From Nitrososphaerota archaeon (GTDB taxonomy: Archaea; Thermoproteota; Nitrososphaeria; Nitrososphaerales; Nitrosopumilaceae): DNA of 33,010 bases. Location of the stretch: positions 1 through 33,010 of the forward strand of contig JAJPKL010000026.1 of NCBI GenBank assembly GCA_021323705.1, given 5' to 3'. This document shows positions 7,210-28,780 of this stretch, piece by piece. A model generated the notes under the pieces. That model was not told where the DNA came from, searched no databases, and was given only the letters and a program-made list of their open reading frames with translations. The position numbers and the translations under genes are program-made. The number at the start of each line of letters is the position of its first letter. Positions within the stretch are counted from its first letter, which is position 1.

Positions 7210-7302
7210 GCGGGTCTATGGCTCAGCCAGGTAGAGCGAGGGACTCTTATGATAATTTCAGAGACATCCCTATGCCGTGGGTTCAAATCCCACTAGACCC
7301 GC
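7210..7302 (+). tRNA. tRNA-Lys(CTT) with 16-base intron
   Basis: Acceptor stem GCGGGTC pairs with GACCCGC at the 3' end. The T-arm is GTGGG-TTCAAAT-CCCAC. The D-arm contains GCTCAGCCAGGTAGAGC. The anticodon stem is AGGGA/TCCCT. Removing 7250-7265 leaves the loop CTCTTAA, which gives anticodon CTT. The intron is at the canonical position after base 37, and CTCT in the exon pairs with AGAG in the intron, with three-base bulges TAT and ACA, as in an archaeal bulge-helix-bulge. The 3' end is the attachment site of the element to the right. CCA is not encoded. Confidence 0.95.
7290..7302 (+). repeat. Attachment site copy in tRNA-Lys 3' end (attL)
   Basis: CCACTAGACCCGC, the last 13 bases of the tRNA-Lys gene, recurs exactly at 22085-22097. 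Direct repeats of a tRNA 3' end flanking an integrase-carrying block are the usual trace of tyrosine-recombinase integration. Confidence 0.75.
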
Positions 7303-7307
7303 CTACC

Positions 7308-8663
7308 ATGATATCCGAGACCTGCCTTAAATTGAATGATATCCCTGGTAGCATGAGCCAGAAATTAAAACTGCTAGAGGACGACGATGTCAGGAGATGG
7401 TATGAGAACCTCAAGCGAGGAAGCAAGCTAACAGCCGAGGTCAGGCTGCGAAGGGTCGGATTATTTTGCAGGCAGCACGGAATGTCACCAAAAGATCTTG
7501 CAAACATTGGAAAAGAGGATGTGAGAAAGCTTGAAGATTTTTTGCATGACTGCGTAACAGAGATGGAGTCAGAAAATTATGCGCCAGGATACATCGACAA
7601 TACAATCAAGGCAGTCAAGTCATGGCTTGCTCACAACTATGTCGAGCTGAAAAGAAAGATCAAGATTGCAAATGCTACCATTCCTGTGACCATTCAAGAC
7701 GAGGAGATTCCCTCAAAGCAGGATTTGCGGGACATTCTAAATGCTGCAACACGAAGGGCGCGGGCAAGCATCTCGCTTATGGCATTTGCAGGGCTGCGGC
7801 CGCAGGTACTTGGAAGAGATGATGGTTCTGACGCTCTTCGGTTATCTGACATACCAGATCTTGTAGCAGAAAAGGATACAGTGCAATTCAAGAGAATTCC
7901 TGCCATGATAGTAGTGCGGCCCGCACTTTCAAAGGCCGGGCACAAGTACATCACATTCCTTACGGGCCAGGGCTGCCAGTACCTCTTGGGATACCTCAAG
8001 GGCCGCATCATGGAAGGCGAGATGCTAGAGCCACAATCGCCTGTCATATCAGTAATCAGGGGGCATGACAGGATGGGAGGCAGGACAAGCAACCCGATAA
8101 TTACGACAAAATCAATCACTGCTGAGATAAGGGATGCAATCCTGTCAGTGAAAAAGGCGAGGCCATACGTTCTGAGATCGTACTTTGATACCCAACTTCT
8201 CCTGGCAGAAAGCCATGGAAAGATTGCCCATGCGTATAGGCAGTTCTTCATGGGTCACAAGGGCGACATGGAGGCGCGTTATACAACCAACAAGGGAAGA
8301 CTCTCTGACGAGATGATTGAGGACATGCGAAGAACATTCCAACAGTCCGAACAGTTTCTCTCAACAGAAGAAATTCAGGAAAAAGATAAGAAGGAATTAT
8401 TGCTTGAGATGTGGCGCGAACAGGCCAAGATCTACGGAATTAATCCATTGAAGATCAAGATTGAAAAACAGAGAGAGTCGAACGGGTCAAGTCTTGAAAG
8501 CGAGATACTTGCAATAAAGGATGCCATAGTCAAATCAAGGGAGGAAAGATACGAAGGGAAGCTTGTAACAGAGAACGAGCTTGTACCGTATATAGAAAAA
8601 GGGTGGGATATCGTGCGGGAGCTAAGCAACGGCAAGGTCCTTGTGAGGAGAAGATCCATCTAG
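7308..8663 (+). CDS. int: Tyrosine recombinase (integrase) of element 1
   Basis: This 451-residue integrase probably inserted the element at tRNA-Lys. The N-terminal half (about 1-130) is an arm/core-binding helical domain (DVRRWYENLKRGSKL to YAPGYIDNTIKAVKSWL). The catalytic domain shows R164 (AGLRPQVLG), R290 (YVLRSYF), H317 (MGHKG) and the nucleophile Y325 (EARYTTNK). The C-terminus ends ELVPYIEKGWDIVRELSNGK. The frame is open back into the tRNA (ATG 7218), but ATG 7308, six bases after the tRNA, is the first start outside it; ATG 7353 is an alternative. It is clearly related to the integrase at 27467-28780. Its end overlaps the next, convergent gene by 42 bases. Confidence 0.93.
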   Translation: MISETCLKLNDIPGSMSQKLKLLEDDDVRRWYENLKRGSKLTAEVRLRRVGLFCRQHGMSPKDLANIGKEDVRKLEDFLHDCVTEMESENYAPGYIDNTIKAVKSWLAHNYVELKRKIKIANATIPVTIQDEEIPSKQDLRDILNAATRRARASISLMAFAGLRPQVLGRDDGSDALRLSDIPDLVAEKDTVQFKRIPAMIVVRPALSKAGHKYITFLTGQGCQYLLGYLKGRIMEGEMLEPQSPVISVIRGHDRMGGRTSNPIITTKSITAEIRDAILSVKKARPYVLRSYFDTQLLLAESHGKIAHAYRQFFMGHKGDMEARYTTNKGRLSDEMIEDMRRTFQQSEQFLSTEEIQEKDKKELLLEMWREQAKIYGINPLKIKIEKQRESNGSSLESEILAIKDAIVKSREERYEGKLVTENELVPYIEKGWDIVRELSNGKVLVRRRSI

Positions 8664-8975
8664 GATTCCAAGCACAGATTCTACAATCTCCTCCTTTCTC
8701 TTGTATGCCTTCTCAGAGAAGAGGGCAAGAAGCGTGTTTGTCATATCCATGTACGGTCTTATCACACTGCATACAAGATAATCCAAAAACTCGTGCCTCA
8801 GCGTCTTGATTGCATCTGAGATGTTGTAAGAATATACAAGGATGGTATCTCCGCATACCTCGCCTTCCTTTTGCGAGTCGGCCCTTGGTATCCATCTCAC
8901 CTTGAGGCCTTGTCCCTTGCCTGAGAGGCGCTTTAGCCTCTCAAGCTCGCGCTCCAAATCATCTTGTTTTATCAA
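8622..8975 (-). CDS. Small protein with HEFLD motif, unknown function
   Basis: This 117-residue soluble protein has a basic, coiled N-terminus (DLERELERLKRLSGKGQGLKV), a central CGDTILVYSYNISDAIKTLR and then RHEFLDYLV. The HE pair resembles a zincin metalloprotease helix, but the second His of HExxH is absent (Asp instead), so activity is doubtful. It starts with TTG 8975; a CTTAAAAC box A at about 8997-9004 (reverse strand) supports a leaderless start there. It converges on the integrase, and its promoter faces away from the hairpin array. The family is not recognised. Confidence 0.7.
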   Translation of the reverse strand: MIKQDDLERELERLKRLSGKGQGLKVRWIPRADSQKEGEVCGDTILVYSYNISDAIKTLRHEFLDYLVCSVIRPYMDMTNTLLALFSEKAYKRKEEIVESVLGILDGSSPHKDLAVA

Positions 8976-9045
8976 CGTCGATAAAATAGCAAGGTGGTTT
9001 TAAGCCGAGGTTTGCAGCCATGTGAAAAATCTTCTGGAACCATTT

Positions 9046-9089
9046 AGTCATCAATCCGGGGAAAAAAATTCTCCCGCCGATTGATGACT
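9046..9089. repeat. Hairpin 1 of the array
   Basis: The arms AGTCATCAATC and GATTGATGACT pair over 11 bases. The inner part starts CGGGGA and ends TCTCCCGCC, a less perfect core than in the other units. This is the outermost unit and has diverged most. Confidence 0.85.
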
Positions 9090-9157
9090 CTGGATACATA
9101 GTATTGTGGCATAAAACGACTTCATTGGAATATTTCCTGAACTCATCCTCTAGAAAG

Positions 9158-9209
9158 AAAAGACATACATCCGCTGGGAAAATTTTTTCCCGTTAGATGT
9201 ATGTCTTTT
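9158..9209. repeat. Hairpin 2 of the array
   Basis: The arms AAAAGACATACATC and GATGTATGTCTTTT pair over 14 bases. The inner core has GGGAA and TTCCC flanking AATTTT. The right inner side CCCGTTAGATGT is the same as in hairpin 6, although the outer arms differ. Confidence 0.9.
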
Positions 9210-9278
9210 TGATATGTAAAAATGCTACTTGATATTGCAAGCCCTCTAGATGACAGTGGAAATGATCCTCTAGAAACA

Positions 9279-9328
9279 AAAGCTACCCATCCAACGGGAA
9301 CAAAAACTCCCTCTGGATGGGTAGCTTT
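9279..9328. repeat. Hairpin 3 of the array
   Basis: The arms AAAGCTACCCATCC and GGATGGGTAGCTTT pair over 14 bases around a GGGA/TCCC core. The outer AAAGCTA start is shared with hairpin 5, while the inner arm bases differ. Confidence 0.9.
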
Positions 9329-9371
9329 CTCTTCTGTAAAAATATCTCATGACATAATTCTGGAATTCGAG

Positions 9372-9415
9372 GGGGGACAATCCACGGGAGTTTTTTTTCC
9401 CGCCGATTGTCCCCC
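9372..9415. repeat. Hairpin 4 of the array
   Basis: The arms GGGGGACAATC and GATTGTCCCCC pair over 11 bases. The core CGGGAG, T-run, CCCG matches the other units. The right inner side CCCGCCGATTG is shared with hairpin 1. Confidence 0.9.
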
Positions 9416-9463
9416 TTTGCTTTCTGTAAAATAGTTCCATGATGAACTCATATTCTAGAATCA

Positions 9464-9513
9464 AAAGCTAATCAATCCGTGGGAATATTTTTTCCCACAG
9501 TATGATTAGCTTT
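9464..9513. repeat. Hairpin 5 of the array
   Basis: The arms AAAGCTAATCA and TGATTAGCTTT pair over 11 bases, then a short mismatch, then GTGGGAA pairs with TTCCCAC. In this unit the core has a G:C to C:G style change that is compensated on both sides (GTGGG/CCCAC in place of ACGGG/CCCGT). Confidence 0.9.
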
Positions 9514-9556
9514 CTTTTCTGTAAATTCATTCCATGACATGATTCTGTAATCCTAG

Positions 9557-9600
9557 GGTGGACATCTAACGGGAATTTTTTTTCCCGTTAGATGTCCACC
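9557..9600. repeat. Hairpin 6 of the array, perfect 19-bp stem
   Basis: The arm GGTGGACATCTAACGGGAA (9557-9575) pairs perfectly with 9582-9600 around a TTTTTT loop. This is the most regular unit and the one nearest the actin-like gene. Confidence 0.95.
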
Positions 9601-9709
9601 TTCGCTTTACAGAACACGCATCCATTTTTGCCAAATTGATCCGTGGATACAAGACAGGCTCGTACCATGAGATTGCGTGTCTTAAAAGGACGCTTTCCTC
9701 TTGCTTGCG

Positions 9710-10543
9710 TTGATCTCAATAGGGCTTGATGTCGGAACCGGCTTTGTAAAATGTGTCTCTGATACCAAGACGGTCAGGTTTCCGTCGCTTTATGCATACA
9801 GGCTGCCGCACCTGTGGGACAGAGACCAGAAAAAAACTGAAGGCGTGGGAGACGATGCAGTGGAGATGCTCAGGGACCCAGATACGATATCTATCAGGCC
9901 CGTGATGTTTGGCAAACCAGTAAATGAAGATGCGTTTTCCAAGCTTGTCGCAAAAGCGGTACAGTTGTGCTCTGAGAGCAGAGACGCACTGGGCGAGATG
10001 TCAGAAATTGCAATTGTAATAGGATTGCCATACGAGGCCAAGGACTCGCGCAACAACCTGCAGAAGATGATATCGAAACTTCTCAAGCCAAAGTTCTGCG
10101 ATGTTGTACCACAGGCACTGGGCACTCTTGCCTCAGTATCAAAGACTGATGGCATTGTAGTATCGATAGGACAGGGGACTACAGAGATCGTGCCCTTTGT
10201 TGGAAGCACTGCAATGAAGGGAATGTCAGTGCATCATGCAGTAGGATACATTTCGTCAAACTTTGGCGAGTACTCGTACCTTGACCATTCCATATTTTCT
10301 TCCAAAGAGGCAAGTAAGCTTGTTCTTGCGCTTGCCGACTCTCTAGTCAACAGGATACAGCAGGCAAGGGCAAGCTATCAGCACCTTCCGGTAATAATCT
10401 CTGGCGGCGGAATGCTGGTGCCTGGGATGGAGCAAGTCCTGCGCTCAAAGCTAGAGTTTATTGTGCCAGACGACCCTGTAATGTCAAACGCGCAGGGACT
10501 GCACAAGATTGCATCCTGGTATTGTGGTCAGATAACATGCTGA
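9710..10543 (+). CDS. Actin-like ATPase, ParM/Ta0583-like
   Basis: This 277-residue protein has the actin fold signatures: phosphate-1 motif IGLDVGTGFVK near the N-terminus, phosphate-2 motif VVSIGQGTTEI (about 150-160) and adenosine motif IISGGGMLVPGM (about 229-240). Plasmid relatives polymerise to push DNA copies apart. It has the hairpin array just upstream and a small basic protein gene overlapping its end, as in type II partition loci. Start TTG 9710 was chosen because box A CTTAAAAGG (9681-9689) lies 26 bases upstream; TTG 9701 is the alternative. Its role in this element's segregation is inferred from context. Confidence 0.85.
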   Translation: MISIGLDVGTGFVKCVSDTKTVRFPSLYAYRLPHLWDRDQKKTEGVGDDAVEMLRDPDTISIRPVMFGKPVNEDAFSKLVAKAVQLCSESRDALGEMSEIAIVIGLPYEAKDSRNNLQKMISKLLKPKFCDVVPQALGTLASVSKTDGIVVSIGQGTTEIVPFVGSTAMKGMSVHHAVGYISSNFGEYSYLDHSIFSSKEASKLVLALADSLVNRIQQARASYQHLPVIISGGGMLVPGMEQVLRSKLEFIVPDDPVMSNAQGLHKIASWYCGQITC

Positions 10544-10827
10544 GCAAAACTCAGAGAAGATTTCTGCAGGATTCTTCATCGTTTTCAAAAAGACATTCAA
10601 GACAATATCGATACACAATACGAAAAAAAGTATTCAGATCGCTTGATGACTTGAATCTTGTGATAACAAACAACGGCATGGTTGGGCTTGATGTGCAAGA
10701 GTTGAAGGCAAGGCTTGAGAGTCTTGTTGCTCTGTTTGACTCTGTAGTCGTTGCAGAAACCAAAAAATCATCACATGCTGAGACAAAAGCCAACCCATTC
10801 CTAGCTTCAAATTCTGGCTGGGGATAA
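10537..10827 (+). CDS. Small basic protein, candidate DNA-binding partner of the actin
   Basis: This 96-residue protein begins MLSKTQRRFLQ, followed by a basic segment (SKRHSRQYRYTIRKKVFRSL) and a predicted helical region (LDVQELKARLESLVALFDSVV). The LSKTQRRFL-type start and basic helix are seen in small archaeal proteins suspected of binding DNA, but I cannot name the family. Its ATG overlaps the actin gene stop (ATGCTGA at 10537-10543), so the two are translationally coupled. By position it could be the ParR-like adaptor linking hairpins to filaments. Confidence 0.75.
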   Translation: MLSKTQRRFLQDSSSFSKRHSRQYRYTIRKKVFRSLDDLNLVITNNGMVGLDVQELKARLESLVALFDSVVVAETKKSSHAETKANPFLASNSGWG

Positions 10828-10905: not shown

Positions 10906-11010
10906 ATGTTATGTATTGATGTTCTGGGATTATCAACAAGAATGGAATTCTACATCAAAGAGGGGATCATGACATCAAAAGAGGCATATCCCAATGGAGC
11001 ACACACGTAA
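10906..11010 (+). CDS. Possible 34-residue leader ORF
   Basis: ATG 10906 lies 25 bases after the strong box A, where a leaderless start is expected. The frame runs 34 codons (MLCIDVLGLSTRMEFYIKEG and on) and overlaps the start of the RHH gene by 17 bases. It could be a short leader peptide coupling translation to the regulator. There is no homology support. Confidence 0.35.
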   Translation: MLCIDVLGLSTRMEFYIKEGIMTSKEAYPNGAHT

Positions 11011-11563
11011 CAAGACAATAAGAAAGTCATACAGCATACCTGAGGAACTGGCACTTTTGCTAGAAAGAGAAGCTGATCACCGTGATACAAGCTCAAGCAC
11101 TCTCCTTACACAACTCATCAAGAAGGGACTTGTATTTGATCTTCCCTTGTCAAAAATAGGCGTGGTTACCATTCCAGGCCCATGCTTTCAGGCCATGATT
11201 GAAAAGATGAGGCTTGAAGAGCTGGAAGAGCTTGCAAGGGAACAAGCCCTTAGAAATTTTGGCATAATGCTCTCCACGTTTCATGGCAAGATGGACCTAT
11301 TATCCATAGTCAGTACGTATTATGAGAAGTTTAGCAAGTATTCTGGTTGGTATACATTCAAGCATGAGATCGATGAGGAAACTCACAGGTTTGTGTTTGA
11401 ACATACGAGGGGACTGAAATGGTCAAGATATCTGGCAGAGTACAACCACGTAATCCTAGACAAGCTGAGCGAGAAGATAGATTTCCAGATTGACAACAAT
11501 CTTGTAATCTTTAATGTGATTCCAAGGCAGAAAAAAACAACAATATCTTACAGGCATTATTAG
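10994..11563 (+). CDS. Ribbon-helix-helix transcription regulator
   Basis: This 189-residue protein has an N-terminal RHH unit: strand TIRKSYSIP, helix EELALLLEREADHR, and helix SSSTLLTQLIKKGLVFD. A longer C-terminal domain (about 60-189) is mixed alpha/beta with FKHEIDEETHRFVFEHTRG; I do not recognise it. It probably dimerises and binds a palindromic operator. Candidate sites (GTAC-N-GTAC class) occur in its own promoter and on the start codons at 11699, 17771 and 20114. ATG 10994 is the only ATG before the RHH strand. Confidence 0.8.
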   Translation: MEHTRNKTIRKSYSIPEELALLLEREADHRDTSSSTLLTQLIKKGLVFDLPLSKIGVVTIPGPCFQAMIEKMRLEELEELAREQALRNFGIMLSTFHGKMDLLSIVSTYYEKFSKYSGWYTFKHEIDEETHRFVFEHTRGLKWSRYLAEYNHVILDKLSEKIDFQIDNNLVIFNVIPRQKKTTISYRHY

Positions 11564-13842: not shown

Positions 13843-14288
13843 ATCATTTTAGAAATCTACCATTTACAACAGAAACACGAACAGCTGGATTTTGATTTCC
13901 ACAAGAACATCTACATATTACGGCATAAGCATCTATTTTACAGGAATTTATTGGCAAGGTCCGATGTTTCTCGCAAAGGAAAACGTCATCAAACATGACG
14001 ACAAAGACAAGCCTACTATTAGTTGCAAGTGCAGAGTGGAAAAATTTAGGGCTTATAAGGAAAGTCAGCTCTGTTATCGAATCTCGAAAGATTCAAAACC
14101 AAAAATACGCAAAACCGTGCGCAAAAATGTGCAAACGCATTTCAGGCAACATAGCCCCACCAATTGTAGAATATTTTTTCTTCTCCTACAAAACTGCACA
14201 ATGAAAACACGACAAAAAATCTTCTGCTCTACCAATAATGTCATCAAATGCTCTGACGCCTGTTCCTAGCCCTTAATGTCTCTACGAT
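13843..14288. other. Gene-poor stretch with one weak ORF
   Basis: I see no convincing gene in these 446 bases. One 69-codon frame (13995-14204, MTTKTSLLLVASAEW) begins with an ATGACGA like the secreted genes, next to an inverted repeat CGTCAT/ATGACG (13984-14000). It lacks a recognisable domain and a clear box A. A longer overlapping frame (13892-14269) is Cys- and Lys-rich and looks like noise. Confidence 0.3.
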
Positions 14289-14302
14289 ATCACAATTGTG
14301 AT
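14289..14302. promoter_or_regulatory. 14-base palindrome on the AbrB-like start
   Basis: ATCACAATTGTGAT is perfectly palindromic and its last two bases are the AT of ATG 14301. A CCTTAATG box A candidate is about 26 bases upstream. This looks like an autoregulatory operator for the AbrB-type protein. Confidence 0.5.
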
Positions 14303-14477
14303 GGAAATAGTATTGCAAAAGCAGAGATCAAGTACATGCAAGGGGACAACCTACTACAAGTATCGAGTCATGATACCTGCGCAGATTGTGGATGATTTCA
14401 AGCTCCTAGGAGGAGAGAGATTTGACGTTTGCCTTGAGAATGACAAGATAGTGATCAGGATAGTTGGAGATGGTTAG
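14301..14477 (+). CDS. AbrB/SpoVT-like DNA-binding protein (58 aa)
   Basis: This 58-residue protein has the swapped-hairpin AbrB pattern: YRVMIPAQIVDDFKLLGGE followed by FDVCLENDKIVIRI. It is short, with no toxin-binding tail, so it is probably a simple regulator. ATG 14301 is preceded by GTG 14298 in the same frame; ATG is preferred for its distance from box A. No toxin gene lies beside it. Confidence 0.7.
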   Translation: MEIVLQKQRSSTCKGTTYYKYRVMIPAQIVDDFKLLGGERFDVCLENDKIVIRIVGDG

Positions 14478-15359: not shown

Positions 15360-15481
15360 TTGTTCTCATCTTTGCTTATCTTCAGTATCTTGTTTTTGGT
15401 TTGATAGTCTAGCTCTTCTTTCTCTGGCTTTTCTGCAGGATCCACCTTGTGCCATTTTAACGGAGATATGTCATGAATCAA
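15356..15481 (-). CDS. Hidden 41-residue ORF in the operon
   Basis: TTG 15481 overlaps the stop of the Cdc48-N-like gene (TTGA), and its TGA overlaps the ATG of the zinc-ribbon gene (ATGA). The 41-residue product is hydrophilic and charged (LKWHKVDPAEKPEKEELDY, then a Lys-rich end). Exact overlaps at both ends argue that it is real and translationally coupled. There is no recognisable family. It is too short for most gene finders. Confidence 0.55.
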   Translation of the reverse strand: MIHDISPLKWHKVDPAEKPEKEELDYQTKNKILKISKDENK

Positions 15482-16530
15482 ATCTTTATGTCTAATCTCC
15501 AAGGACCTTGCGCTACCATGTAATGTGATTTTTGCTGCTGCCAGACAGAGACTACCGTAGGCTCGCCTCTTATTGCCTCATTTATCTGCTCGAGAAACTG
15601 CAAGTCCTTCTTGTCCCGTCTCTTCCAAGCTATCTCATCTATCTCAATGGTAATCTTTGATACATCTTTTTTTATTGCGGGTACAAAAGTCAAGAGCAAT
15701 TTGTTGCACTGTGATCCTTCCTCAGTCCACCGGCTCTCAACCTTTCTTGTCTTGACTTGCTTGTATACGGTTCCGATATCGTCATGTGCTGATATCACTA
15801 CATGCATTATGTTTTCAAGCCACTCTGTCGGCTCATCAAGAACAACTCTTGTCTCAAGATAGAGCCTCCATTCATCTTCATAGTTCTCAAACGATTCAAG
15901 GGAAATACCAAGCCTCTTGTCAGATATCTGCTTTCCTATCTGAAATCTTTTTTTCAGTTTGGATAGTTGAGGTGCAAGGGAATTTCTATAATTATACGAA
16001 ACAAAATTGAACTTCGTATTTTCAGATATTACCAATATCTCTGAATTAGGCTTTGCATCAACTACGCCAAACTCTGCAAAAGGGAATATCGAGTCTGACT
16101 CCTTGATTGCGATTCTTATCCAGTCTCCTTTTGTAAAAGGTGTTCCAATCAGACTTTTCAGGTCGAGACTCTCTGCCTTGTATGTATAGGGCCTCCTTGA
16201 TGCAAGAGTTATACTCTCTGCTGTCACTACGTCTTCAGCTTTTTCTATCTCTACTAGAGAGAGTACTTCACCACCTGCATTTTGGAAGACCAGATCACTT
16301 GGGCGTGTTAGATGTTGGATCCTTTCTGTATTATGCAGAAATTCGAATGTGGGATCGTGTGGTAGTGTCTTGTCTAGTGGCATACACATTGCAGCTGTAT
16401 CTCTTGAGCCTTTTACACGTACTATATCGCCGCTAGAAACTCCAAGCCTTTCCATTTCTGCCCTAGGAATCCTGATGTATGCCTTGGCAAAATCGTCGGG
16501 GTATGGGGGTATTATCCTAAAAAAACTCAT
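15478..16530 (-). CDS. Stand-alone Cdc48/VAT N-domain protein
   Basis: Residues about 8-50 (AYIRIPRAEMERLGVSSGD, IVRVKGSRDTAAMCMP) match the double-psi barrel at the start of Cdc48/VAT AAA ATPases. Residues about 125-180 (GTPFTKGDWIRIAI, FAEFGVVDAKPNSEILVISE) match the second, four-stranded N-subdomain. No Walker A or B motif follows; the last 160 residues are an unknown domain with basic segments. It may act as a substrate adaptor, decoy or competitor of the host Cdc48. Its ATG overlaps the stop of the secreted gene before it (TGATG). Confidence 0.75.
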   Translation of the reverse strand: MSFFRIIPPYPDDFAKAYIRIPRAEMERLGVSSGDIVRVKGSRDTAAMCMPLDKTLPHDPTFEFLHNTERIQHLTRPSDLVFQNAGGEVLSLVEIEKAEDVVTAESITLASRRPYTYKAESLDLKSLIGTPFTKGDWIRIAIKESDSIFPFAEFGVVDAKPNSEILVISENTKFNFVSYNYRNSLAPQLSKLKKRFQIGKQISDKRLGISLESFENYEDEWRLYLETRVVLDEPTEWLENIMHVVISAHDDIGTVYKQVKTRKVESRWTEEGSQCNKLLLTFVPAIKKDVSKITIEIDEIAWKRRDKKDLQFLEQINEAIRGEPTVVSVWQQQKSHYMVAQGPWRLDIKI

Positions 16531-22084: not shown

Positions 22085-22097
22085 CCACTAGACCCGC
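22085..22097 (+). repeat. Attachment site copy, right end of element 1 (attR)
   Basis: CCACTAGACCCGC is the exact copy of the tRNA-Lys 3' end. Upstream, GTGG-AAAA-CCAC imitates a shortened T-arm. No full tRNA is present here. Confidence 0.75.
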
Positions 22098-22586: not shown

Positions 22587-23501
22587 CTAGATTGGTACAA
22601 GCCACTCAGAGAACCTCTCATCCCTGCCGCGAGATACATCATAGAATAAGCTCTGCAGCTTGCGCGTTACCTCACCTGGCTTTCCGTCTCCCACAGGTAC
22701 GTTATCTATCTCTGTAACAGACTTGATTTCTGCCGCAGTGCCAGTCATGAAGACCTCGTCTGAGATGTACAGTTCGTCTCTATCGATCTCTCTTTCCACA
22801 ACTGAGATGCCCTCAGATCTTGCTATCTTGATTGTGCTGTCCCGTGTTATTCCATCCAAAATTCCGGCGTTCAGTGGCGGCGTAGCAATCTCGCCCTTGT
22901 TTACTGTAAAGATGTTTTCTGCACTTCCCTCTGAAACCTTGCCGTGATAGTTTAACATTATTGCCTCGTCATATCCGTCCTTTAACGCCTCTACTCTTGC
23001 AAGGGCGGCGTTTGCATAGTTAGATGCGGCTTTTGCCTGCATCGGCTGGGATCTAGAATCAATTCTAAGCCAGCTTGACACCTTGCATCTTGCTCCGCGA
23101 ACCTTTCCCGCACTTGACTCGCCAACGTTCCATTCCCAGCAGGCTATTGCAACATCCACCTTGTTTGGAGTTGGCGTAAGGCCAAGAACGCCATAGCTAT
23201 AGTATGCAATAGGCCTGATATAACACTCCTTCAGCCCACTTGACTGTACTGTCTTGATTATGCCATCAGCTATATCTTTTCTTGAATAAGGAATATTCAT
23301 TGAATACATCTTTGCAGACTTGAAGAGCCTGTCTACATGTTCTGGAAGCCTGAAAATTGCAGGCCCCTTTGTTGTCTTGTAGCATCGAATTCCTTCAAAG
23401 ACTGCAGTGGAGTAATGCAACGCATGAGTAAGAACATGTACCTTTGCATTCTTGAATGGTACAAGTTTTCCATTCATCCATATCTTTCCCTGCTCTTTCA
23501 T
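22587..23501 (-). CDS. ilvE: Branched-chain amino acid aminotransferase
   Basis: This is a fold-type IV PLP aminotransferase that makes Leu, Ile and Val from their keto acids with glutamate. The 304-residue length is normal. The PLP lysine is K157 in QAKAASNYANA. Other signatures are HYSTAVFEGIRCY, YIRPIAYY, DEAIMLNYHGKVSEGSAENI and EVFMTGTAAEIKSVTEID. All agree with IlvE rather than D-amino acid transaminases. It is a housekeeping gene in the core segment between the two elements. Confidence 0.95.
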   Translation of the reverse strand: MKEQGKIWMNGKLVPFKNAKVHVLTHALHYSTAVFEGIRCYKTTKGPAIFRLPEHVDRLFKSAKMYSMNIPYSRKDIADGIIKTVQSSGLKECYIRPIAYYSYGVLGLTPTPNKVDVAIACWEWNVGESSAGKVRGARCKVSSWLRIDSRSQPMQAKAASNYANAALARVEALKDGYDEAIMLNYHGKVSEGSAENIFTVNKGEIATPPLNAGILDGITRDSTIKIARSEGISVVEREIDRDELYISDEVFMTGTAAEIKSVTEIDNVPVGDGKPGEVTRKLQSLFYDVSRGRDERFSEWLVPI

Positions 23502-27295: not shown

Positions 27296-27370
27296 TGGGT
27301 TCATAGTCCAGTTGGTTATGACGTCGCCCTTACACGGCGAAGATCCAGGGTTCGAATCCCTGTGGACCCA
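27296..27370 (+). tRNA. tRNA-Val(TAC)
   Basis: Acceptor stem TGGGTTC pairs with GGACCCA (one G-T pair). The anticodon stem TCGCC/GGCGA encloses the loop CTTACAC, giving anticodon TAC. The T-arm is CAGGG-TTCGAAT-CCCTG. There is no intron and CCA is not encoded. A CTTATATGC box A lies about 25 bases upstream. Its 3' end is the likely attachment site of element 2. Confidence 0.97.
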
Positions 27371-27466
27371 TTTCCTTTGTGGGTGCGGATACCACGACCC
27401 TGCCGTTTGGCAGAGCCCCGACATAGAGCCAGCCGTCATTTATGAGTCGTTCTGCCTCCTCGGGCC

Positions 27467-28780
27467 CTACAACACGCTGCTGGTATTGCAGCCTGCCAGT
27501 TCACTGACAAGCTTTTGCACCGCGGCAAGCTTTTCAGGCGGGAGACACTGTATTGACTGTCTTATCTGTTCCCTTTTCTCTTCCTGTGGGTCTTCTGCTC
27601 CTTTTTCCAGATCCAACAACTCTTCGCTTCTCCTAAACGAGTCCCGCATCGCATCAGTCAGGGCTTTAGGAAGTATTCCCTTGTTTGTCGTGTAGGTTGC
27701 CTCTATGCTTCCCTTGTGGCCCATGAAGAAGACACGAAAGTCGTGTGCTATCTTGCCGCGTGACTCTGCAATCAGCAGCTGGGTGTCAAAAAAAGCTCTG
27801 AGCACATATGGCCTCCATTGGAAGCGGGGCCTCATGGTATTCTTTATCTCGACCCTTATCCGCTGTGTTGGCAAGAAGGGTTTTGTACTGTTCTGTCCCC
27901 TCTGCATTGGATGTTTTGATGCAGGTGCTATCACGGGAGAGTCTGGTGCTAGTGCATCACCGGCAAGTATTCTTGCATTGAGATATGCAAGGAGTCTTTT
28001 TGCCCCCATGTCGGTGATGAAGGTAAAGTACTCGTGCCTTGTTTTTGAAAGAGCCTTTCGCACCTTGATTCTCGGAGGAATGCTTGTGAAGATGACAAGT
28101 CCCTCCACTATTGCAAGGTCTGGCAGATCCTTTATTCGCAGTCCGTCCGTACCGTTGTGATTGCCAAGAACCTCGGGCCTCAGTCCGGCTTTTGCAATCA
28201 GGGACATCATGGCTCCTGACCGCACCTCAGACCTGTTGAAGAGCTCCGTAAGCTCCAGACTCTCTGGGACCTTCTCGTTTTCTAGTGTAGGAGTAGAGCC
28301 AAGGTTTGAGATCTTGATTCTCCTTTTGATCTCTACCTCAAAGTGCCGCAGCCATGATTTTACAGCCTTTACGGTATCTCCTATGTATCCCGGGGCATAG
28401 CCTTCTTCCTCCATTGATGTTATGTGGTCCTCTATCAGGTCCGTGACTGCTCTAAGATCCCTCATGCCAAGTTCCGCAAGCTCGCTTGGAGTCATGTGGT
28501 GAGCTTGGCAGAAAAGACCCAGCCTGCGAACCCTTACATCTGCGGTAAGTTCGCTTCCCCTTGACAGGTTTTCGTACCATCTCTTGACATCGGGATTGGC
28601 AAGGAGCCGGTTCTTTTTTGTGTACTTTTGTTTTGTGGCAGTGTTGATGTTTGTGGTTTGTTCTATTTTTCCCATATCAGACTGCCAGCTTGCTTTGTGC
28701 AAGCAGTCCTCATCATTCTGTACAGGCGCAGTGGAGGTATTTTTGAATTTCTCATCTGAAAGGACTGGGTCAGAAACCAT
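27467..28780 (-). CDS. int: Tyrosine recombinase (integrase) of element 2, C-terminus frameshifted
   Basis: This 437-residue integrase is a homologue of the one at 7308-8663 (for example RWYENLSRGSELTADVRVRR and YAPGYIGDTVKAVKSWLRH). The catalytic residues R201 (AGLRPEVLG), R328 (YVLRAFF), H355 (MGHKG) and Y363 are present. It stops at TAG 27467 after ELAGCNTSSVL. In another frame, just downstream, GPEEAERLINDGWLYVGALP and NGRVVV match the end of the first integrase (ELVPYIEKGWDIVRELSNGK). So the last 40 residues are shifted out of frame. The 3' end, not the 5' end, faces the tRNA, the reverse of element 1. Confidence 0.9.
   Translation of the reverse strand: MVSDPVLSDEKFKNTSTAPVQNDEDCLHKASWQSDMGKIEQTTNINTATKQKYTKKNRLLANPDVKRWYENLSRGSELTADVRVRRLGLFCQAHHMTPSELAELGMRDLRAVTDLIEDHITSMEEEGYAPGYIGDTVKAVKSWLRHFEVEIKRRIKISNLGSTPTLENEKVPESLELTELFNRSEVRSGAMMSLIAKAGLRPEVLGNHNGTDGLRIKDLPDLAIVEGLVIFTSIPPRIKVRKALSKTRHEYFTFITDMGAKRLLAYLNARILAGDALAPDSPVIAPASKHPMQRGQNSTKPFLPTQRIRVEIKNTMRPRFQWRPYVLRAFFDTQLLIAESRGKIAHDFRVFFMGHKGSIEATYTTNKGILPKALTDAMRDSFRRSEELLDLEKGAEDPQEEKREQIRQSIQCLPPEKLAAVQKLVSELAGCNTSSVL

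Follow-up and report, generated by a model that had tools for sequence, protein, structure and literature searches.

Do integrated elements of archaea carry actin-based machinery for segregating their own DNA, and if so, of which parts is it made? The question is raised by a locus in a 33,010-nucleotide stretch of DNA from a Nitrososphaerota archaeon (the window; contig C12 of a 1.84-Mb genome), which a preliminary description presented as a three-part partition system composed of a hairpin array, an actin-type ATPase and an overlapping gene for a small basic protein. All three parts exist (six stems, a 277-residue open reading frame and an ATGCTGA overlap) and the finding is real, but the three-part system is not a fixed unit, while the two genes are. 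Relatives with the same genes bear the name Candidatus Nitrosotalea or are Thaumarchaeota MAGs, and the host is a Nitrosotalea-related archaeon. Our literature searches turned up no publication that deals with actin genes carried by mobile elements of ammonia-oxidising archaea.

We take the region from ~7.29 to 22.1 kb to be an element integrated in the tRNA-His gene (Table 1), in agreement with the preliminary description: an integrase, identified by homology and position, a tRNA target and flanking candidate att repeats are all present. The repeat is short (13 bases), and matches of at least 13 bases occurred in 0 of 60 random 91-nt control windows. Chromosomal backbone genes restart at 22587, in the same order as in two other genomes (G021 and G002). 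At the left end, the integrase-like ORF is followed by a reverse-strand ORF, the array, the actin gene and the small gene. The integrase-like ORF had no Pfam match and probably starts at or after 7305; we presume it to be an integrase from its position at the tRNA, its similarity to the ORF at the tRNA-Val end and general features of archaeal tyrosine recombinases. Homologues of the reverse ORF, also without a Pfam match, occupy the same place in L035, L124, L156, L157, L159 and L160. A second integrase of the same family (ORF 27467-28780, within 27296-28780) sits at tRNA-Val, at the start of another element running off the contig. Other genes of the window include a 189-residue protein (10994-11563) with a weak Pfam RHH_5 match (E 0.08, below the cut-off) and homologues near sister actins in L051 and L052; a 59-residue ORF that is AbrB-like by eye and had no Pfam match; and a 350-residue ORF (15478-16530) with an N-terminus similar to the CDC48 N domain (E 3.2e-8, slightly under the cut-off) and no match to an AAA domain.

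Table 1. Features of the integrated element and its surroundings, in window coordinates.
Feature	Position	Strand	Basis or remark
tRNA-His, integration target	7212..7303	+	ARAGORN; Rfam tRNA
Integrase-like protein	7218..8663	+	longest ORF begins within tRNA; homologues in 65/151 relatives
Candidate attL core CCACTAGACCCGC, 3' end of tRNA	7290..7302	+	exact 13-base repeat of 22085-22097
Small conserved ORF travelling with integrase	8622..8975	-	homologues at same place in relatives
Six-hairpin array	9046..9614	.	conserved core, variable complementary arms; model scores 51 to 69 bits for the six
Promoter-like box TCTTAAAAGG of actin gene	9680..9689	+	~20-30 bases before start
Actin-family ATPase, 277 aa, TTG start at 9710	9710..10543	+	Pfam MreB_Mbl E 1.1e-7; fold model; PHROG
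96-aa basic helical protein, candidate adaptor	10537..10827	+	overlaps actin end by ATGCTGA (10537-10543)
Displaced homologue of conserved non-coding region	14040..14270	+	blastn to L035; alignment; GGCAACAT at 14145
59-aa ORF	14298..14477	+	cluster c1 (10 ORFs), common to other actin-bearing elements
Candidate attR core, right end of element	22085..22097	+	repeat of tRNA 3' end

The actin assignment, part of the original proposal, stands. The AlphaFold2 model of the 277-residue protein (pLDDT 91, pTM 0.89) aligned best by fold with MamK (Z 28.2, rmsd 2.6, 259 residues), and also with BeeR, MreB and actins, and PHROG_691, annotated 'partition protein', matched residues 3-268 with an E value of 4.7e-12. 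The domain-level score for Pfam MreB_Mbl was reached (31.5 vs a cut-off of 27), whereas the curated MreB subfamily score was not (NCBIfam MreB, 30.1 bits vs a cut-off of 293); NCBIfam ParM gave 15.9 bits vs a cut-off of 417 over 30 matched residues, and Pfam Salactin and Volactin matched weakly. The preliminary description had suggested a structural comparison with ParM and Ta0583; both were absent among the best 50 matches listed, which is no proof of distance. Homologues of the actin were found in 16 of 201 relatives, and among named genomes an alignment scan recovered 41 loci where a single-sequence scan gave none. Scans found no relatives in viral contigs or phages and, in plasmids, one partial match, in Fischerella.

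The small protein is strongly basic (pI 10.2; 11 K/R against 3 D/E in the first 45 residues), and its model consists of helices at residues 4-11, 18-44 and 53-78 followed by a low-confidence tail (mean pLDDT 77.8, pTM 0.54), with residues 1-30 at pLDDT 94-96 and without an N-terminal strand. Being all-helical in the model, it is not a ribbon-helix-helix (RHH) ParR, which agrees with the preliminary description, and none of 14 family members matched a Pfam RHH domain. Foldseek returned nothing at E 0.001 and a second structural search reached Z 2.7 at best, neither matching a DNA-binding fold. Members of the family share conserved C-terminal ends, joined by a variable linker to a basic helical N-terminal part, a build that suits an adaptor.

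The association of the two genes, likewise claimed at the outset, is conserved. Searches of the 201 relatives gave 14 small-protein matches in 11 genomes, 13 of which lie directly 3' of an actin; the exception, in G083, is a short N-terminal match (E 0.006). A profile search of 61 genomes added G007, a broken copy in G016 and weak partial matches elsewhere, and in three Nitrosopumilus-type loci the small gene also follows the actin, giving 17 pairs in all (14 loci in relatives and these three). Six of the elements (L037, L039, L040, L041, L042 and L044) have a block of three genes, c13-c12-c11, on the 5' side of the pair. TFIIB was matched weakly by one member of c13 (E 0.0022, under the cut-off), and c12 has no Pfam match. 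Thaumarchaeal integrated elements with their integrases, including ICEs with TFIIB-ParB genes, have been described (PMC6563490, whose main text uses none of the terms actin, ParM and hairpin), and from that description and the sequences we read the c13-c12 block as TFIIB-ParB; several of the related loci resemble these ICEs in having a TFIIB-like ORF and a neighbour taken for ParB. Right after the small gene of L090, L091 and L093, three direct repeats of approximately GCAWCTCCTTAAGCC, some 30 bases apart, can be seen by eye, and may be iterons or tandem promoter boxes.

Related actins have other partners. With sister actins (35-40% identical) the small gene is absent, and the neighbour that overlaps them tail to tail is an AbrB/MazE-like protein, present in 8 of 9 sister loci among named genomes (the ninth ends at a contig end); this protein has invariant tail residues (an SLADLQY end), and one member matches MazE_antitoxin (E 5.9e-4, below the cut-off). 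In a third actin group, an ATPase of 1,031-1,049 residues directly follows the actin (L098, L099, L100, L102, L112); that of L098 matches a type IV coupling protein (TrwB-type) domain (E 2.9e-6), and the adjacency suggests that actin and conjugation are connected in these elements. Related actins thus keep three different partners, two of which belong to DNA-handling families; this is stronger support for a DNA-moving role than any one locus provides. The AbrB-like partner with its conserved tail would be an independent parallel to the build of the candidate small-protein adaptor. With a family of this extent and three partner types, the replaceability of actin adaptors would become directly testable. 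In L047-L049, pairs of AACCATATGGTT-like palindromes precede the AbrB-like gene, where they may serve the sister actin system as operator or centromere.

The array itself is made of six hairpins (9046-9089, 9158-9209, 9279-9328, 9372-9415, 9464-9513 and 9543-9614) whose starts are 79-121 bases apart. They share the core ATCC-nnC-GGGA-8 A/T-rich bases-TCCC-G-nn-GAT, with a GGGA-to-TCCC gap of 8 bases in five of the six and of 9 in the first (H1), and have outer arms that differ from unit to unit and are nonetheless complementary. A stem scan of 9000-9700 found 5 strong stems, as against 0 in each of 200 dinucleotide-preserving shuffles, and no further stem of this strength in the rest of the 33-kb window.

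To what extent does the array belong with the two genes? At E 0.01, a covariance model matched 5 of the 201 relatives (strongly in the window, G030 and G005, with 31.8 bits in G016 and weakly in G087) and 3 of 400 genomes of the order; the G087 match is a hairpin without the GGGA/TCCC core and was set aside, as was the one match of a pattern scan of IMG/VR, which we took for chance, its sequence having no hairpin array. Only 2 of the 17 pairs have an array upstream. The preliminary description had proposed a three-part locus and had named an actin gene without any array as counter-evidence; 15 of the 17 pair loci are of this kind (2 of them with less than 200 bases of upstream DNA), so the array is not a constant third part and the pair cannot generally need it.

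Within the clade of the window's integrase the picture is different. Among eight close integrase elements, the array was found in 3 of 3 that have the pair or its remains and in 0 of 5 that have neither (G019, G021, G004, G089 and G083), a split with a chance of 1 in 56 if the elements were independent, which overstates the case because they are related; G002 was excluded from this count because its contig ends inside the integrase. At a tRNA-Ala, G030 has the same integrase and reverse ORF, three hairpins, the actin and the small gene. G016 represents the window's own chromosomal site (flanking genes 63-90% identical, integrase 82%), and here two hairpins are followed by a gene family also found in ICE-like contigs. 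Its actin is missing, its small gene has an in-frame stop and its array is the weakest, which strengthens the link between array and pair; the broken small gene also rules out G016 as proof that the array is independent of the pair. The only other strong hairpin is a lone one in G005 (L045:5736-5787), on an ICE-like contig that carries the pair 9.4 kb away; H6 and one of the G030 hairpins have almost the same arms. The three-part layout thus failed as a general arrangement and found partial support in this clade, and the data support an array that is an optional, lineage-specific companion, linked to the two genes by co-occurrence in one clade only.

We tentatively favour the reading that the actin and the small gene are a ParM-like segregation or positioning pair with an unrelated adaptor, and that the array is a clade-specific docking site, most likely its role in this integrase clade. 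The actin would polymerise into filaments, the small protein would bind DNA and tie the filament to the element, and the array, whose inverted repeats could be extruded as cruciforms, would be the tether point. Such a pair would be needed when the element is excised or transferring, and would imply an episomal or transferring phase of these integrated elements. Several observations count against this reading: most pairs have no array, the G005 hairpin is far from its pair, G016 keeps two hairpins without an intact one, and a cis feature more widely shared than the array, downstream of the small gene, could be the true site. The low ParM score, the lack of ParM among the listed structural matches and the failure to match the small protein to a DNA-binding fold count against it as well.

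Known systems give this reading some footing. The parMRC locus of plasmid R1 has cis repeats, an actin and a small basic gene in this order. The archaeal locus resembles parMRC of R1 and pSK41 in this order and in the actin fold, and differs from it in an adaptor that is all-helical in the model and not RHH, in an array present at 2 of 17 loci, and in an actin whose sequence resembles MreB models more than the model of ParM. A nearer precedent is srpMRC of SXT/R391 ICEs, in which, as described in PMC4489591, a 10.4-kDa basic adaptor without a known domain binds repeats upstream of the actin gene and stabilises the ICE, and which makes a mechanism of filament, tether and array plausible. Both systems have an actin-type ATPase, a small basic adaptor (a candidate one in the archaeal case) without a recognisable domain or ParR homology and centromere-like repeats upstream, on an integrative element and near int; srpMRC is bacterial, however, whereas the archaeal element has hairpins with variable arms that are a candidate site only. 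AlfA/AlfB/parN and AlpC/AlpA/alpS, each an actin with a non-homologous adaptor and its own DNA site, show that adaptors are replaceable in evolution, and AlpAC is also found on an integrated element; these systems belong to a bacterial plasmid and a prophage, and alpS consists of short repeats (TTAAnnG) in the promoter region, not of hairpins (PMC5539076). Salactin, crenactin and other archaeal actins are homologues from the same domain of life, and Salactin has been proposed to partition DNA, but their genes are chromosomal (PMC10746226).

Alternatively, the array could belong to a module on the integrase side that acts in recombination or in replication of the excised circle, for example as accessory sites or origins that form hairpins; it would then occur together with the actin pair through shared ancestry in one small clade. 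It sits between the block of integrase and 8622-8975 ORF and whatever comes next, it accompanies 3 of the 4 closest integrases (that of the window and those at 77-82% identity), and G016 retains it without a working pair, just as 15 of the 17 pairs do without it. On the other hand, G019, at the same tRNA site, has a 79% identical integrase and the 8622-8975 ORF without an array and, in place of the pair, a sister actin without the small protein in that element; four more integrase elements also lack the array, and the array that persists in G016 is the weakest. We regard this alternative as rather unlikely, if a serious one.

No less serious, and on balance just as doubtful, is the proposal that the true docking site lies downstream, in palindromes where the small gene ends and in the non-coding region after it, which would form a downstream centromere or a regulatory RNA and which are shared more widely than the array. 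A conserved non-coding region, ~350 bases long in L037-L046, follows the small gene in 12 loci besides the window and contains a GGCAACAT-type motif as well as a promoter-like box, and a GGCAACATCGCC region lies 77-101 bases after the small gene in 12 of 17 loci tested; in the window the non-coding region survives 3.3 kb further downstream, where the insertion of cargo seems to have moved it. In six ICE-like loci (L037, L038, L039, L040, L042 and L046) there are two ATTACRGAATTCTGTAAT-type 18-base palindromes (0-4 mismatches), 262-274 bases apart, one copy of which lies within the 3' end of the small gene. Elsewhere, the arms found at this position differ in sequence and are again complementary. 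This downstream region may be a general cis site or RNA. The window, L035 and L036 have no ATTACRGAATTCTGTAAT-type palindrome there, however; L035 has a different inverted repeat, and neither the window nor L036 has an arm of more than 4 bases at the 3' end of the small gene. The GGCAACAT motif is absent from the three Nitrosopumilus-type loci. A codon-shuffle test for inverted repeats in the second half of the small gene gave p 0.03 or lower in 8 of 16 loci, but only 4 of these (L037, L038, L039 and L041) reflect the site near -90, and nothing was found in the window or L036. Tests of long-range, site-to-site pairing between the two palindromes were suggestive only, RNAalifold gave 8 pairs and a weak result for the non-coding region, and Rfam had no match to it in the loci searched. 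By eye, its promoter-like box could also make it the leader of the next gene.

The arms of the hairpins bear on what the array could be recognised by. For ten hairpins (six from the window, three from G030 and one from G005), we compared pairing with 500 column shuffles and six register slides. Paired cells amounted to 88.1% vs 73.8% in shuffles, cells changed on both sides to 31 vs 11.6, and the covariation score to 0.455 vs 0.179, values that were reached in 0 of 500 shuffles and that fell far lower in all six slides, so that the claim of variable yet paired arms holds. Two further measures were less extreme: 17 of 500 shuffles equalled or exceeded the number of doubly changed pairs, and 25 of 500 the number of pair types. 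When two G016 hairpins were added, the three main results held and the other two weakened (43 and 123 of 500), in part through a misplacement of one G016 row by a few alignment columns. The pairing of the arms is selection-like or copy-corrected. Nearly every arm change went from Watson-Crick to Watson-Crick, and arm columns 8-16 contained 0 G-U among 88 paired cells (1 of 99 with G016), which fits DNA pairing rather than RNA pairing. Since a plain duplex-binding protein would need no complementary variable arms, the pattern suggests either that a single DNA strand pairs with itself, as a cruciform or single-strand hairpin, or that palindromes are corrected by copying.

A bolder form of the docking reading, which we consider unlikely, is that the array serves as a centromere recognised by the shape of its DNA: the adaptor, of no known fold, would bind a cruciform or hairpin of almost any complementary arms and couple it to an archaeal actin filament, sister actins having swapped in unrelated partners (AbrB-like protein, conjugation ATPase). 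The possibility of a structure-read centromere would likewise become directly testable.

Less probable still, the hairpins could be a functionless small repetitive element or self-correcting palindromes, whose arms would stay complementary through template switching. Mutation is known to proceed by quasi-palindrome correction, and arm types are common across elements, as copying would give (an AAGCTA type in H3, H5 and G016, a GGTGGACAT type in H6, J1 and K1). Yet the arms vary around constant core bases and bulge positions, and the few genomes matched by the covariance model show no spread. Least probable is an array that is transcribed and acts through a series of RNA hairpins, such as a small RNA or regulator: the strong covariation and the flanks conserved between the arrays of the window and L006 would suit it, but G-U pairs are nearly absent, neither strand is favoured by the loops, which are rich in T in some units and in A in others, no Rfam family matched at gathering score, and the array lies upstream of the promoter-like box (a CTTAAA-type box ~20-35 bases before the start in most of 16 actin loci compared by eye) and is therefore not the actin leader.

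Two further resemblances were considered. Integron attC sites, compared by eye with the integron consensus, were rejected: H6 has R-site-like bases, the other units lack them and the stem position is wrong. 'TTACAGAA' was also rejected as a common binding site of the small protein, being missing from the L006 hairpins and kept in G016, where the small gene is broken; it occurs in five copies in the window's array and as perfect palindromes in ICE loci.
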